Origin: Pelomonas sp. Root405
GTDB taxonomy: Bacteria; Pseudomonadota; Gammaproteobacteria; Burkholderiales; Burkholderiaceae_C
Direction of reading: 5' to 3'
Assembly (NCBI RefSeq): GCF_001425165.1
Contig: NZ_LMDU01000014.1
Location: forward strand, 706,827 to 770,826
Length of the DNA: 64,000 nucleotides
Part shown: piece after piece, positions 55,623-59,251 of the stretch
How positions within the stretch are numbered: the first letter of the stretch is position 1
How the letters are laid out: every line of letters begins with the position of its first letter
Program-made: the position numbers and the translations under genes
The notes under the pieces: model-generated
What the model was told of the DNA's origin: nothing
What the model saw: the letters and a program-made list of their open reading frames with translations, nothing else
Databases searched by the model: none

Positions 55623-56540
55623 ATGGGATTTGAAATCGCCCTCGTCATTCTTGTCATCGCCGCGATCTTCATCGTCCGCGCTGTCAAGGTCGTTCCCCAG
55701 CAGAACGCCTGGGTCGTCGAGCGCCTCGGCAAGTACCACGCGACACTCACGCCAGGCTTGAATTTCCTTGTGCCATTCGTCGACCGCCTCGCATACAAGC
55801 ACTCGCTGAAAGAGATCCCGCTGGACGTGCCGAGCCAAGTCTGCATCACCAAGGACAACACCCAACTGACTGTCGACGGCATCCTCTATTTTCAGGTCAC
55901 GGATGCCATGCGGGCCAGCTACGGTTCGAGCAATTACATCGTGGCAATCACCCAACTCGCCCAGACGACGCTGCGCTCGGTCATCGGGCGTATGGAACTG
56001 GACCGAACGTTTGAAGAGCGCGCCGTGATCAACACCTCGGTGGTGGAAGCCTTGGACGAGGCCGCGCTGAACTGGGGCGTCAAGGTGCTGCGCTACGAGA
56101 TCAAGGATCTGACGCCGCCGCCTGCGATCCTGCACTCCATGCAGGCTCAAATCACGGCAGAGCGGGAGAAGCGCGCATTGATCGCGGCATCGGAAGGCCG
56201 GCGCCAGGAGCAGATCAATATTGCGACCGGCGAACGGGAGGCCGCCATCGCGCGCTCAGAAGGCGAGAAGCAGGCTGAAATCAACCAGGCGCAAGGTGAA
56301 GCTGCCGCCATCACCGCAGTGGCCGACGCCACTTCAGACGCCATCCGCAAGATTGCGGCCGCCATTCAGCAGCCCGGCGGCGACCAGGCCGTCCAGCTCA
56401 AGGTGGCGGAGAAGGCCGTTGACGCCTACGCGCAGCTCGCTCAAAAGAACAACACGATGATCGTGCCAGGCAATATGAGCGAAGTGGCTGGCCTGATTGG
56501 CACGGCTATGGCGCTGCTCAAGGCCGGCGGAAGGCCGTAA
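55623..56540 (+). CDS. SPFH/Band 7 (paraslipin/QmcA-like) membrane protein
   Basis: This 305-residue protein has one N-terminal transmembrane helix (FEIALVILVIAAIFIVRAV), then the SPFH domain (VPQQNAWVVERLGKYHATLTPGLNFLVPFVDRLAYKHSLKEIPLDVPSQVCITKDNTQLTVDGILYFQVTD), and a coiled coil (AQITAEREKRALIAASEGRRQEQINIATGEREAAIARSEGEKQAEINQAQGEAAAI). These form membrane microdomain scaffolds and cooperate with NfeD and with quality-control proteases. It is in an operon with nfeD. Confidence 0.94.
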   Translation: MGFEIALVILVIAAIFIVRAVKVVPQQNAWVVERLGKYHATLTPGLNFLVPFVDRLAYKHSLKEIPLDVPSQVCITKDNTQLTVDGILYFQVTDAMRASYGSSNYIVAITQLAQTTLRSVIGRMELDRTFEERAVINTSVVEALDEAALNWGVKVLRYEIKDLTPPPAILHSMQAQITAEREKRALIAASEGRRQEQINIATGEREAAIARSEGEKQAEINQAQGEAAAITAVADATSDAIRKIAAAIQQPGGDQAVQLKVAEKAVDAYAQLAQKNNTMIVPGNMSEVAGLIGTAMALLKAGGRP

Positions 56541-56564
56541 GAGCGAAGGCCTTAAGCAAAAAAA

Positions 56565-56595
56565 CCCGCGAGGACCCTGAAAGGGCGGTCGCGGG
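56565..56595 (-). terminator. strong terminator on the minus strand
   Basis: CCCGCGA...TCGCGGG hairpin (with an inner CCCT/AGGG) lies next to seven consecutive A's on the plus strand (56558-56564), so on the minus strand it is a classic hairpin followed by TTTTTTT. It is 77 bases past the stop of the small open frame at 56672 and would end that transcript. Confidence 0.82.
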
Positions 56596-56603
56596 CGCAA
56601 AGA

Positions 56604-56645
56604 CGTTCGGGGGGCGCCGAACGAAAGCGATGGAGGTGTCGCTTT
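56604..56645. other. two tandem hairpins next to the terminator
   Basis: CGTTCGG-N6-CCGAACG (56604-56623) and AAAGCGA-N8-TCGCTTT (56624-56645) are perfect 7-bp-arm hairpins directly abutting each other. With the terminator they give a three-hairpin 3' end, as in structured small RNAs. On the plus strand the second is followed by TTCC, so it could also weakly terminate the SPFH transcript. Confidence 0.5.
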
Positions 56646-56671
56646 TCCTAGGGTCTCGTCAATGACCGGGA

Positions 56672-56737
56672 TCAATTACCGGTGATGGGAAAGCCGAACA
56701 GCTCAGCAAAGACTTCCCAGAAAGAAACTTGTTCCAT
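56672..56737 (-). CDS. candidate 21-residue peptide gene downstream of the LuxR-type regulator
   Basis: An open frame of 22 codons including TGA begins MEQVSFWEVF and ends PITGN. It is rich in Phe and amphipathic (four Phe, one Trp, three Glu). It has no signal peptide. The ribosome site is weak (GCGGATGG nine bases upstream at best). A TTGACC -35-like hexamer (56784-56789) and the 18-bp dyad at 56799 lie upstream, and a three-hairpin terminator follows. Context rather than codon statistics supports it; a non-coding RNA is the main alternative. Confidence 0.5.
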   Translation of the reverse strand: MEQVSFWEVFAELFGFPITGN

Positions 56738-56783
56738 TTGCGCCATCCGCTGGTTGCGTTGAGATGGCTCAGTGTGTCGGACT

Positions 56784-56789
56784 GGTCAA
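56784..56789 (-). promoter_or_regulatory. -35-like hexamer TTGACC before the mini-gene
   Basis: On the minus strand TTGACC lies 46 bases before the small frame's ATG. No convincing -10 is present at 16-18 bases (CATCTC at 17), which would suit a promoter needing an activator. Confidence 0.4.
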
Positions 56790-56798
56790 CGGCGGAGA

Positions 56799-56816
56799 AC
56801 TACCAACCCTGGTAGT
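56799..56816. promoter_or_regulatory. lux-box-like dyad, copy 1
   Basis: ACTACCA ACCC TGGTAGT is a perfect 18-bp inverted repeat, the length and form of LuxR-type operators. Its centre is about 21 bases upstream of the TTGACC hexamer, and it ends 9 bases from the LuxR stop codon. A near-identical copy lies before the LuxR start (57546). Confidence 0.65.
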
Positions 56817-56825
56817 GGCGAAGCC

Positions 56826-57542
56826 TCAGAGGACGCCCAACTCCATGGCCTTCAGGACAGCCTGATGCTTGGTCGACACGTCTAGCAGCTTGAACAGTTG
56901 CTTCATGTGGTAGTTCACGGTGTTCTCGCTGATGCCCAACAGGCTGCCTACCACCCACGCGCTCTTGCCTTCCATCGTCAACTTCAGGATCTCAAGCTGG
57001 CGCGGAGGAAGCTTTAGCTCCCATTGCGACGGCCTTTTGGACATCAGCAGCCGCCCAGCGGCGTCTTGCGCATGAACCGCAAGCAGTTGCAGGTCCGCAA
57101 TCATCCGATTCAACTTGATCGGATCCTTGGGCAGAGGCGCCTCCCGATCAACGCCAAGCAGCAATCGGCGGTAGCCGGGCATCTGGACACCGACGGCGAC
57201 ACCGGTTCGATAGCCGAACGGCGCGTACATCTCCCACAACTCGCCCGCCCCAGCGTTGACGTAAAAGGCCTGGTCGTAAATGAGCGGCTTGGTGAGATGG
57301 GTCAAAGCCCGATGCACCGGATCTCGCTGCGCATGGCTGTTGTCCCGGGATGTCTCCAAGAACGCCTCAGGGGTGTTTCCTACTGCGACGTATTCGGTCT
57401 TCGCCCCTGGTCCCCGATGCTCGATAGCAAGCACACCAACGACGAGGCCGAAATCCAAGTCGTTCGCAAACTCGATCAGCCCGCGTCGGAAGGACGTGAG
57501 GTTCTCGGCTTGACTGACTTGTTCGTACCGCTGGAGGTTCAT
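56826..57542 (-). CDS. LuxR-family regulator with autoinducer-binding-like domain
   Basis: This 238-residue transcription factor has an N-terminal autoinducer-binding-like domain (about 10-160: LTSFRRGLIEFANDLDFGLVVGVLAIE, LIYDQAFYVNAGAGELWEMYAPFGYRTGVAVGVQMPG), where the Trp/Tyr/Asp pattern of acyl-homoserine-lactone receptors is partly recognisable. The C-terminal LuxR helix-turn-helix (about 172-235) reads LPPRQLEILKLTMEGKSAWVVGSLLGISENTVNYHMKQLFKLLDVSTKHQAVLKAMELGVL. No luxI is in the window, so this is a LuxR solo or serves a distant signal. No Shine-Dalgarno is evident; an operator-like site touches the start, suggesting autoregulation. Confidence 0.92.
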   Translation of the reverse strand: MNLQRYEQVSQAENLTSFRRGLIEFANDLDFGLVVGVLAIEHRGPGAKTEYVAVGNTPEAFLETSRDNSHAQRDPVHRALTHLTKPLIYDQAFYVNAGAGELWEMYAPFGYRTGVAVGVQMPGYRRLLLGVDREAPLPKDPIKLNRMIADLQLLAVHAQDAAGRLLMSKRPSQWELKLPPRQLEILKLTMEGKSAWVVGSLLGISENTVNYHMKQLFKLLDVSTKHQAVLKAMELGVL

Positions 57543-57545
57543 GCG

Positions 57546-57561
57546 CTACTAAGGTTGGTAG
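57546..57561. promoter_or_regulatory. lux-box-like dyad, copy 2, next to the LuxR start
   Basis: CTACTAAGGTTGGTAG matches the minus-strand reading of copy 1 (CTACCAGGGTTGGTAG) at 14 of 16 positions. It starts 4 bases upstream of the LuxR ATG, covering where a ribosome-binding site would be, and lies 58 bases before the divergent 131-codon gene. Confidence 0.62.
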
Positions 57562-57619
57562 GAGCAGCGCAGCGTTGGGGAACGCAAACTGCAATCCATC
57601 CAAATGACGGGAGTTCCGA

Positions 57620-58015
57620 ATGCAGATGGCAGCGTGGCAACTGATGGCCTGCGAAACGGTCGTCAAGACTGTAAACGAGTTCGAAATCGTGACCCATGAA
57701 CTGCGGCAAGTCGGGAGCAGCGTTCGCGTGCACGATGCAAGTTCCGGCCTGCGGTCAGGTCAGGAGGTCTGGGCAACGTCGGCAGGCGATGAGCCAATCC
57801 AGATCGCATGGGAGTGGACCGAAATTCAGTCAGACATCGTTGCCCTGTTCGACCCGATGAACATCCTCTGCAACGTTTCCCTGATCGACGGCCAAGGGCA
57901 CGCGTTGGCGCGTTCGCGGCGCATGCTGCATCTGAACAATCTGGTCCATAGACTTGATTGGCAGGGCGCTTTGGAAATGCGAGCGGCCAAGTGCGACACA
58001 AGGTCCGGCGCCTGA
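57620..58015 (+). CDS. 131-residue protein, possibly RsaM-like (DUF4902)
   Basis: This protein is divergent from the LuxR gene. The segment WEWTEIQSDIVALFDPMNILCNVSLIDGQGHALARSRRMLHLNNLVHRLDWQ recalls RsaM/DUF4902 proteins, which sit beside luxR/luxI genes in Burkholderia and modulate quorum sensing. That resemblance is from memory of the family pattern and needs an HMM check. GGGAG six bases before ATG 57620 supports the start. It contains no signal peptide or membrane segment. Confidence 0.65.
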   Translation: MQMAAWQLMACETVVKTVNEFEIVTHELRQVGSSVRVHDASSGLRSGQEVWATSAGDEPIQIAWEWTEIQSDIVALFDPMNILCNVSLIDGQGHALARSRRMLHLNNLVHRLDWQGALEMRAAKCDTRSGA

Positions 58016-58044: not shown

Positions 58045-58135
<91 letters not shown>

Positions 58136-58621: not shown

Positions 58622-58698
58622 TGGCGGAGTGGACGGGGCTCGAACCCGCGACCCCCGGCGTGACAGGCCGGTATTCTAACCAACTGAACTACCACTCC
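58622..58698 (-). tRNA. tRNA-Asp(GTC), copy 1
   Basis: On the minus strand acceptor GGAGTGG pairs with CCACTCC, D-arm GTTCAGTTGGTTAGAAT, anticodon arm CCGGC-CTGTCAC-GCCGG with GTC, T-arm GCGGGTTCGAGCCCCGT and encoded CCA; 77 bases. Confidence 0.97.
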
Positions 58699-58774
58699 GT
58701 GTTGGGATGAGTTCCGAATATCTGCATACTCGCAAGCCGCATCAAACTTGCCCGTCCTGCGACGGGTACCAAAC

Positions 58775-58850
58775 TGGCGTCCCCTAGGGGATTCGAACCC
58801 CTGTAATCACCGTGAAAGGGTGGTGTCCTAGGCCTCTAGACGAAGGGGAC
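58775..58850 (-). tRNA. tRNA-Glu(TTC), copy 1
   Basis: Minus strand, 76 bases: acceptor GTCCCCT/AGGGGAC, anticodon arm CCACC-CTTTCAC-GGTGG with TTC, T-arm AGGGGTTCGAATCCCCT, encoded CCA. Confidence 0.97.
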
Positions 58851-58871
58851 AAATTCAAAACTCAAAAAACA

Positions 58872-58893
58872 AACGGCCAACGAATTGGCCGTT
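58872..58893 (-). terminator. terminator inside the tRNA cluster
   Basis: AACGGCCAA CGAA TTGGCCGTT is a perfect 9-bp hairpin. On the minus strand it is followed by TGTTTTTTGAG. It lies between the two tRNA-Asp/tRNA-Glu pairs. Confidence 0.7.
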
Positions 58894-58920
58894 CAATATC
58901 GGGATAACCGATGGAAACCT

Positions 58921-58997
58921 TGGCGGAGTGGACGGGGCTCGAACCCGCGACCCCCGGCGTGACAGGCCGGTATTCTAACCAACTGAACTACCACTCC
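58921..58997 (-). tRNA. tRNA-Asp(GTC), copy 2
   Basis: Same sequence as copy 1 over the 77-base tRNA, with anticodon GTC and encoded CCA. Confidence 0.97.
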
Positions 58998-59049
58998 GCG
59001 TGGGATGAATTCGATATCGCCTTGCGACAATACCCAAGCTCATCAAACT

Positions 59050-59125
59050 TGGCGTCCCCTAGGGGATTCGAACCCCTGTAATCACCGTGAAAGGGTGGTG
59101 TCCTAGGCCTCTAGACGAAGGGGAC
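59050..59125 (-). tRNA. tRNA-Glu(TTC), copy 2
   Basis: Same sequence as copy 1 over the 76-base tRNA, with anticodon TTC and encoded CCA. Confidence 0.97.
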
Positions 59126-59175
59126 TAAACCTTCGCGACTTGAACTGCGCGCCACTTAAATTCTTCTAAGGAATT

Positions 59176-59251
<76 letters not shown>

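Follow-up and report, generated by a model that had tools for sequence, protein, structure and literature searches.

On the minus strand of the window, as the whole 64,000-nt stretch of Pelomonas sp. Root405 DNA analyzed here is termed, a gene for a LuxR-type regulator is followed by a 22-codon mini-gene and a run of three hairpins, and an RsaM-like gene is oriented divergently from the regulator gene. The features of the locus, in window coordinates, are as follows.

57620..58015, plus strand: divergent RsaM-like gene (DUF4902, PF16245), 23.5 bits against a cut-off of 25
56826..57542, minus strand: LuxR-type regulator of 238 aa, with profile matches to PF03472 (58.6 bits) and PF00196 (44.3 bits)
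56799..56816, minus strand: lux-box-like dyad ACTACCAGGGTTGGTAGT, with perfect 7-bp arms and a 4-bp centre
56789-56784, minus strand: TTGACC
56771..56776, minus strand: -10-like CACACT, 23 nt past the lux box
56672..56737, minus strand: mini-gene MEQVSFWEVFAELFGFPITGN and its stop, a 22-codon ATG-to-TGA frame
56624..56645, minus strand: hairpin 1, AAAGCGA-CACCTCCA-TCGCTTT, its C-rich loop containing CCUCC
56604..56623, minus strand: hairpin 2, CGTTCGG-CGCCCC-CCGAACG
about 56596-56565, minus strand: third hairpin, resembling an intrinsic terminator with an interrupted stem, and seven T at 56564-56558

The nearest neighbours of the regulator and the mini-gene are the rsaM-like gene, a tRNA-Ser gene and the SPFH and NfeD genes. 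The tRNA-Ser (GGA) lies at 58045-58134, and a cluster of tRNA genes (Asp, Glu, Asp, Glu, Ala) is also located near the locus, at 58622-59251. A PADLOC search returned nothing notable. For Pelomonas, a luxR solo with a divergent rsaM has already been published as type 6a, in a study that equates RsaM with PF16245 and ascribes to it the regulation of AHL systems (PMC10710839); the term "small orf" is absent from the main text of that paper.

All of the minus-strand sequence features listed in the original prediction (the dyad, TTGACC, the 22-codon frame, the three hairpins and the seven-T tail) were confirmed. Its further claim that the mini-gene has promoter-like elements of its own failed in one part, since TTGACC ends just 7 nt before the conserved -10-like CACACT, a spacing that rules it out as a -35 element; a lux box and a -10 pattern were found instead. 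The proposed terminator is present as the seven-T hairpin and resembles an intrinsic terminator, although its stem is interrupted and a consensus scan did not list it. That scan, of positions 56500-57700, returned no sigma-70 promoter and no terminator, and the promoter and terminator of the mini-gene therefore rest on comparison and folding.

The regulator encoded at 56826-57542 consists of an autoinducer-binding domain (PF03472) and a GerE DNA-binding domain (PF00196) and is LasR-like by profile (E 3e-24); with no PF00765 (LuxI) match anywhere in the window genome, it is a LuxR solo. Only two PF03472 LuxR proteins are encoded in that genome, the second 222 kb away on the same contig, and both are accompanied by a peptide gene. 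Matches to PF00765 do occur in 8 of 20 genomes of the genus, barely over the cut-off (25.3-34.5 bits against 24). The three of these eight that were checked (L032, L033 and L036, of L031-L038) are acyltransferases associated with PEP-CTERM/exosortase systems, as judged by TIGR03694 (239-245 bits against a cut-off of 112), and are not AHL synthases, so that a count of LuxI proteins based on Pfam alone would be misleading.

Conservation of the mini-gene was assessed in a sample of 20 Roseateles/Pelomonas genomes, 15 of which hold an orthologue of the window LuxR (defined as at least 70 % identity). Thirty loci of the genus were fetched, comprising these 15 orthologues (clade A) and 15 paralogues with 42-48 % LuxR identity (clade B). 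LuxR proteins 69-91 % identical to that of the window were found in Pelomonas, Roseateles and unclassified Burkholderiales or Comamonadaceae MAGs. The mini-gene frame is kept in all 15 orthologous loci and a similar ORF follows luxR in all 15 paralogues; in each of the 30 loci the short frame lies ~80-130 nt past the LuxR stop and ends in G-(L/F/V/I)-P-x-x-G or a near variant, the core of the window peptide being GFPITGN. For three clade B loci (L018, L020 and L022), the divergent ORF upstream of luxR looks RsaM-like in translation, by eye only.

Two of the checks proposed with the original prediction, namely conservation of the frame alongside LuxR orthologues and a dN/dS or synonymous-bias test, have now been run. 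The first held at all 15 orthologous loci, as above. In the second, pN/pS across 15 core codons of the 15 orthologues was 0.36 in frame versus 0.95 and 3.15 out of frame; variability at the three codon positions was 0.34, 0.11 and 0.50, with a third-position excess significant by permutation (p 0.0003). The coding signal is weaker in clade B (pN/pS 0.64, p 0.06; 17 paralogue sequences). The mini-gene is thus a real coding frame under selection in the Roseateles/Pelomonas clade, in the absence of any transcript or translation data. Its start codon is uncertain because the Shine-Dalgarno sequence is weak, and a second in-frame ATG lies three codons upstream, at 56746, initiation at which would yield a product beginning MAQMEQ. 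An automatic scan requiring a Shine-Dalgarno sequence labelled the window's own locus "none", and for this reason the window frame rests on conservation and the codon test. No NCBIfam family reached its cut-off for the window peptide.

The intergenic region between luxR and the peptide gene carries a 16-bp lux box at most loci of the wider collection described below. Under a strict test (6 of 8 palindromic positions) it was detected at 45 of 129 loci, compared with 0.9 expected, and under a relaxed definition chosen after the strict result had been seen (CT-N12-AG, at least 5 of 8 palindromic), at 104 of 128, compared with 3.5 expected; both expectations derive from mononucleotide shuffles. 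A box of the type CTACCAGGGTTTGTAG is aligned in all 15 orthologues. The distance from box to start codon has a median of 75 nt and falls between 65 and 83 nt in 90 % of loci. TNNAAT begins exactly 23 nt past the box in 55 of the 59 box-bearing loci whose peptide has a double-glycine leader (leader-type), and at the same place the 45 box-bearing loci with leaderless peptides have NANACT (22 loci) or TNNAAT (12 loci; offset 23 or 24). A box followed at fixed distance by a -10 element fits a promoter that would be activated by LuxR bound at the -35 position. Strict boxes were also found within 250 nt upstream of luxR in 29 of 168 rows (2.3 expected). Conservation, codon bias and a lux box in fixed position hence support the claim that a small peptide is encoded on a discrete transcript linked to LuxR, no transcript data being available.

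A separate observation is that 14 of 17 clade B paralogue loci, for example L022, contain a G-rich tract such as TCTAGGGGGGTGAAAAC between the lux box and the -10 element. Pairing of this tract with the clade A hairpin loop was considered and dropped, as the tract's position between box and -10 places it upstream of the expected transcription start.

Downstream of the peptide frame, two near-invariant hairpins with C-rich loops are present in 14 of the 15 orthologues; the element of the remaining locus (L010) has diverged, and that locus was excluded from the structure alignment. Hairpins 1 and 2, together with their loops, are more conserved than the ORF, and the loop sequence CCUCC is complementary to Shine-Dalgarno sequences. 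In the structure alignment two pairs of the third, intrinsic-terminator-like hairpin covary; for hairpins 1 and 2, covariation provides neither support nor refutation because they hardly vary. One full copy of the element per genome, beside the clade A LuxR, was detected in 14 of 20 genus genomes, and within the genus it was found nowhere else save for a 28-nt match in G010. This match (G010:C20:2051-2078) is perfect and lies on the opposite strand, ~56 bp from another LuxR homologue. Rfam identified only tRNAs in the window at the gathering threshold, and a search of 56400-56900 at E up to 10 yielded two chance-level matches (E 6.2 and 6.8). The alternative raised in the original prediction, that the transcript acts as a structured small RNA, therefore held in part, for the Roseateles/Pelomonas clade, where the 3' hairpins are near-invariant and single-copy.

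On a wider scale, LuxR-profile matches (E up to 1e-45) were found in 103 of 399 genomes sampled from the family, representing 39 of 141 genera. Among 399 genomes drawn from the order, four had matches (E up to 1e-40), two of them outside the family, and a downstream scan of these two out-of-family loci revealed no such peptide. The same luxR-peptide arrangement is found in Rubrivivax, Ideonella, Aquincola and others. The 166 distinct LuxR proteins comprise 64 with a leaderless peptide, 66 with a leader-type peptide and 36 with none detected by the scans. They correspond to 168 rows, two LuxR being entered twice (one from L231, the other present as both L091 and L246), and include five further pairs that are 97-99.6 % identical. 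The rows were labelled leaderless (62, plus 2 inverted), leader-type with HlyD (54) or without (13), none (30) and none with HlyD (7); inspection of the last group identified a GG precursor at five of the seven loci. Among the other LuxR genes without a peptide are remote LuxR, genes located at contig ends and upstream members of tandem arrays. Manual reading, completed before the tree was built, changed the labels of twelve rows: five window-clade loci with weak Shine-Dalgarno sequences became leaderless, L069 and L071 leaderless-inverted, L149, L188 and L234 leader-type, and L072_4001 and L168 none. In the inverted Rubrivivax locus L069 the peptide gene is convergent to luxR and has its own imperfect box-like dyad, and an inverted C-terminal core is seen at L071.

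That the arrangement is not due to chance is indicated by a strict motif, consisting of a Shine-Dalgarno sequence, ATG and a core-bearing ORF within 520 nt downstream of luxR, which was found in 96 of 168 rows as against a mean of 0.05 (maximum 1) over 20 dinucleotide shuffles. Controls gave 3 occurrences on the reverse strand, none over the 520 nt that precede luxR and none at 37 outgroup LuxR hits.

Leader-type precursors are ~45-80 aa in length with a double-glycine leader, as in ...LDPAQLRQVSGG-LPKATW, ...LPPELLRQVSGG-APRPMW and ...LEPHQLAQVAGG-QGSPKGGW, and like the leaderless peptides they have a short core at the end, LPRTGW and PKGTW being examples. If cleavage occurs after GG, some of the inferred mature peptides (LPKATW, APRPMW and APGRRW) would consist of six residues, which would be the size of a pheromone. 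Cores may also be repeated in tandem, three times in L232 (SPKGGWSPKGGWWAPKGGW; itself leaderless), four times in L190 (PSPKGTW) and five times in L200 (GPNGGW). The N-terminus of the Roseateles peptides looks amphipathic, and the original prediction had characterized the product as an amphipathic peptide. This helix is not the conserved part: in relatives it may be missing (MQSRSTSHASFPRTGW, MQHPTNQAPGFPRVGF, MNAFKTSQTTPNIPRVGGW), and the core is kept despite an unrelated N-terminus in L065, L074, L075, L173, L177, L212, L220 and L221. Since relatives swap the helix for polar residues or a double-glycine leader, it is the C-terminal core that constitutes the conserved essence of the peptide. 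No NCBIfam or Pfam family reached its cut-off for the precursors tested (eight and six, respectively); for one precursor a ComC match fell below threshold (14.4 against 20.4 bits).

Several variants of the arrangement were noted in passing. Three to five LuxR paralogues are arrayed in tandem at L216 (genome G084), L228 (G229), L229 (G359), L230 (G214) and L231 (G114), and the last LuxR of the array is the only one followed by the peptide gene and HlyD at L216, L228 and L229. The remote LuxR relatives L244 and L245 have GG-leader-like precursors ending in PPPPPTWPTW or QPGPLPGW, proline-rich ends that could possibly represent a further core type. The leaderless peptides of L132, L133 and L134 carry the core FPTTGGW in mid-sequence, followed by a hydrophobic tail, for example LTFFSWFFG.

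Possession of a leader is matched by the presence of an export system. HlyD is encoded beside 54 of 66 leader-type loci versus 0 of 64 leaderless loci (at the other 12 leader-type loci it is absent within 900 nt), and a C39-peptidase exporter usually comes after it. The order in L256, the only operon read from end to end, is luxR, peptide, HlyD (PF13437) and a C39-peptidase ABC exporter (PF03412, PF00664, PF00005), with about 120 nt from the peptide to HlyD; for the ABC protein, bacteriocin-export families of NCBIfam were listed, all under their cut-offs. Exporter distances were tabulated for 96 LuxR rows from 80 genomes, counting only C39 matches above 100 bits and excluding further tandem-array members, a G001 fragment and remote second copies in G157, G172, G209, G240, G253 and G282. 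A strong same-strand match lies within 9 kb downstream of 54 of these 96 genes, at 1565-2151 bp in 53 cases; the 42 without one include some leader-type loci. PF03412 was found in 71 of the 80 genomes, and the nine without a C39 match all carry leaderless peptides. The window's genome is one of the nine, with no PF03412 match and a peptide that has no leader. Leader and exporter thus occur together across loci. C39 matches were also found on plasmids (1115 records), with no LuxR gene in either of the two contexts inspected, and of 91 plasmid matches to a leader-type LuxR, 12 were compared and were 30-35 % identical.

The distribution of peptide types was examined on a FastTree phylogeny of LuxR (177 rows, SH-like support) that has several long branches and an outgroup that is not a clean clade. 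A leaderless clade of 60 rows (58 leaderless, 2 none; support 97) is sister to a clade of 104 rows (support 96) that holds the leader-type loci. Leaderless peptides recur inside the latter, in L221/L232 (support 100), L173/L177/L192 (94) and L072_2936 (on a very long branch), and the tree leaves unsettled whether the leaderless or the leader-type state is ancestral.

The ligand-binding domain was compared with AHL receptors by mapping the positions of TraR W57, Y61, D70, P71, W85 and G113 by hand through LasR; residue counts use the automatic labels "short" and "GG" assigned before hand relabelling. At the position of W57, the AHL-contact tryptophan, all 61 short rows have Y, F or H, and W is found in 5 of 64 GG rows. 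The Y61 position is variable. At the W85 position, W is present in all 64 GG rows and in 14 short rows, with Y in the other 47. Replacement of W57 may point to a ligand other than a standard AHL, which is a possibility and not proof. Equivalents of D70, P71 and G113 are retained in nearly all LuxR rows, and because these are residues of AHL receptors a small-molecule ligand is not excluded. AlphaFold2 was applied to a natural chain in which LuxR, linker and peptide are in frame (L065). The receptor was modelled with confidence, and the linker and peptide were left undocked with pLDDT 26-36. This prediction gives no support for binding of the peptide to LuxR, although it represents a weak test, having been run with a shallow alignment (32) and the native linker.

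A sensor of the LuxR type next to a gene for a short peptide, in many cases with an export pump, resembles peptide-based bacterial sensing, an inference from gene arrangement. What is established is the position of the peptide gene, after luxR and after a lux box that has a -10-like element at fixed spacing, together with the conserved C-terminal core of its product and, in the window clade, coding selection. We consider it likely (probability about 0.66) that one LuxR clade is accompanied by a family of peptide genes, to which the mini-gene belongs as its leaderless form in Roseateles/Pelomonas, and that these LuxR-peptide pairs form peptide-pheromone circuits with LuxR-type receptors; binding, export, processing and re-import are all inferred. 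The core outlives the other parts of the peptide, and relatives possess a leader, an exporter and repeated cores, so that a signal read by the neighbouring LuxR is the simplest account. The suggestion in the original prediction that the peptide may be the LuxR ligand nevertheless remains an inference, as binding has not been shown.

It is proposed that LuxR would activate the peptide promoter and that the core peptide would be the cognate ligand of the adjacent LuxR, so that the loop would be a positive one. Leader-type species would use the peptide as a quorum signal, cleaving it at GG, exporting it and then taking it up again. In the window species the peptide would probably serve as a self-activating switch within the cell that makes it, or else exit by another route. 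In the window clade the conserved two-hairpin element of the transcript would probably function as a trans-acting small RNA, and with the small RNA and the peptide on one transcript the unit would therefore be a dual-function RNA, the RNA function being inferred.

A bolder reading, towards which we lean only slightly, is that these loci represent a class of quorum sensing of which no account was found, in which LuxR proteins of Burkholderiales would recognize short, ribosomally made peptides whose gene lies directly beside luxR. In one branch these would be made as precursors, often multi-copy, with a double-glycine leader and would leave the cell through a C39 exporter. In a second branch, which includes the window, and in a few lineages nested in the first, the same core occurs with neither leader nor exporter, and the signal would have become, or begun as, an intracellular self-activating peptide, joined in the window clade to a small RNA.

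The strongest rival holds that the peptide is a LuxR-controlled output, such as a leaderless microcin, toxin or membrane-active peptide (double-glycine microcins in relatives), and that LuxR senses something else. HlyD and C39 exporters are typical of microcin export, bacteriocin-export families are listed for the ABC protein (below their cut-offs), and the N-terminus of the Roseateles peptides looks amphipathic. We regard this explanation as unlikely. The inferred mature products of six residues and the tandem identical cores speak against it, as do the dispensability of the helix when the C-terminal core is not dispensable and the clustering of peptide types on the LuxR tree. In addition, the 1565-2151 bp from luxR to C39 at 53 loci leaves little space beyond the peptide and HlyD, and given this and the ~120 nt between peptide and HlyD in L256, no room for an immunity gene is evident.

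A second rival, also judged improbable, is that the product of the window clade is a LuxR-controlled, trans-acting small RNA with C-rich seed loops, the ORF being minor or regulatory. It is favoured by the near-invariance of hairpins 1 and 2 in 14 sequences, beyond the conservation of the ORF, and by the single full copy beside LuxR in 14 of 20 genus genomes. However, the ORF is under coding selection, other clades retain the peptide while the element, within the genus, is confined to clade A LuxR save for the 28-nt match, and RNA and peptide activities are in any case compatible. A third proposal, that the peptide is a negative partner binding LuxR or RsaM and damping the circuit as a feedback micro-inhibitor, draws on the divergent RsaM-like gene flanking the window LuxR and the regulation of AHL systems by RsaM (PMC10710839), but is very unlikely, as it leaves the secretion leader and adjacent exporter of the sister clade unexplained.

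Returning to the preferred reading of a peptide-pheromone circuit, no description of LuxR-peptide pairs was found in the open-access literature searched, preprints and most subscription journals being outside its scope. Already published are the divergent rsaM-luxR solo (PMC10710839) and a LuxR homologue reported to respond to a peptide (PMC4981722). Textbooks divide quorum sensing into AHLs in Gram-negative and peptides in Gram-positive bacteria. If these LuxR proteins do read encoded peptides, they would constitute a clear exception to that division, given their occurrence in 103 of 399 sampled family genomes. Many LuxR solos have unknown ligands; here each locus names its own candidate ligand, sometimes a purchasable hexapeptide, and the ligand question therefore becomes directly testable. 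Loci in which the core comes with leader and exporter, and loci in which the same core has neither, would together also provide a natural experiment on how social and private signals are related.

The unit can be compared with several known systems. With the dual-function RNAs RNAIII/delta-haemolysin and SgrS/SgrT it shares a regulator-controlled transcript, a tiny ORF and conserved hairpins, although here the hairpins have no Rfam match at the gathering threshold and both RNA function and target pairing are inferred. PipR/OryR are LuxR solos responding to a plant compound or peptides, and PipR is reported to respond to the peptide Ser-His-Ser, for which a peptide ABC transporter is required (PMC4981722). 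The likeness lies in a LuxR homologue with a reported peptide response; the inducer there is exogenous and peptidase and transporter genes are neighbours, whereas here the candidate peptide is encoded beside luxR, and peptidase and peptide ABC transporter genes are not among the nearest neighbours of the window LuxR. LuxI/LuxR AHL sensing with rsaM similarly involves a PF03472 LuxR, a lux box and an adjacent RsaM-like gene, but the window genome has no PF00765 match, the W57 position is replaced and it is a peptide gene, not luxI, that accompanies luxR. ComC/CSP and the C39 double-glycine peptides resemble the sister clade in GG leader, C39 ABC exporter and HlyD, and differ in that the peptide here lies beside a LuxR in place of a histidine kinase and that the window form has neither leader nor C39 match. 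There is also a parallel in layout with SHP/Rgg, ComS/ComR and other RRNPP systems, pheromone systems of Gram-positive bacteria with TPR-domain receptors. As in these, a tiny gene lies by its regulator and has in its promoter what is likely a site for that regulator, and, as in RRNPP pheromones, a variable N-terminus precedes a conserved short C-terminal core, the activity of the peptide here being inferred; in contrast to them, the receptor would be a LuxR autoinducer-binding domain in place of a TPR fold, and the hosts are Gram-negative Burkholderiales.
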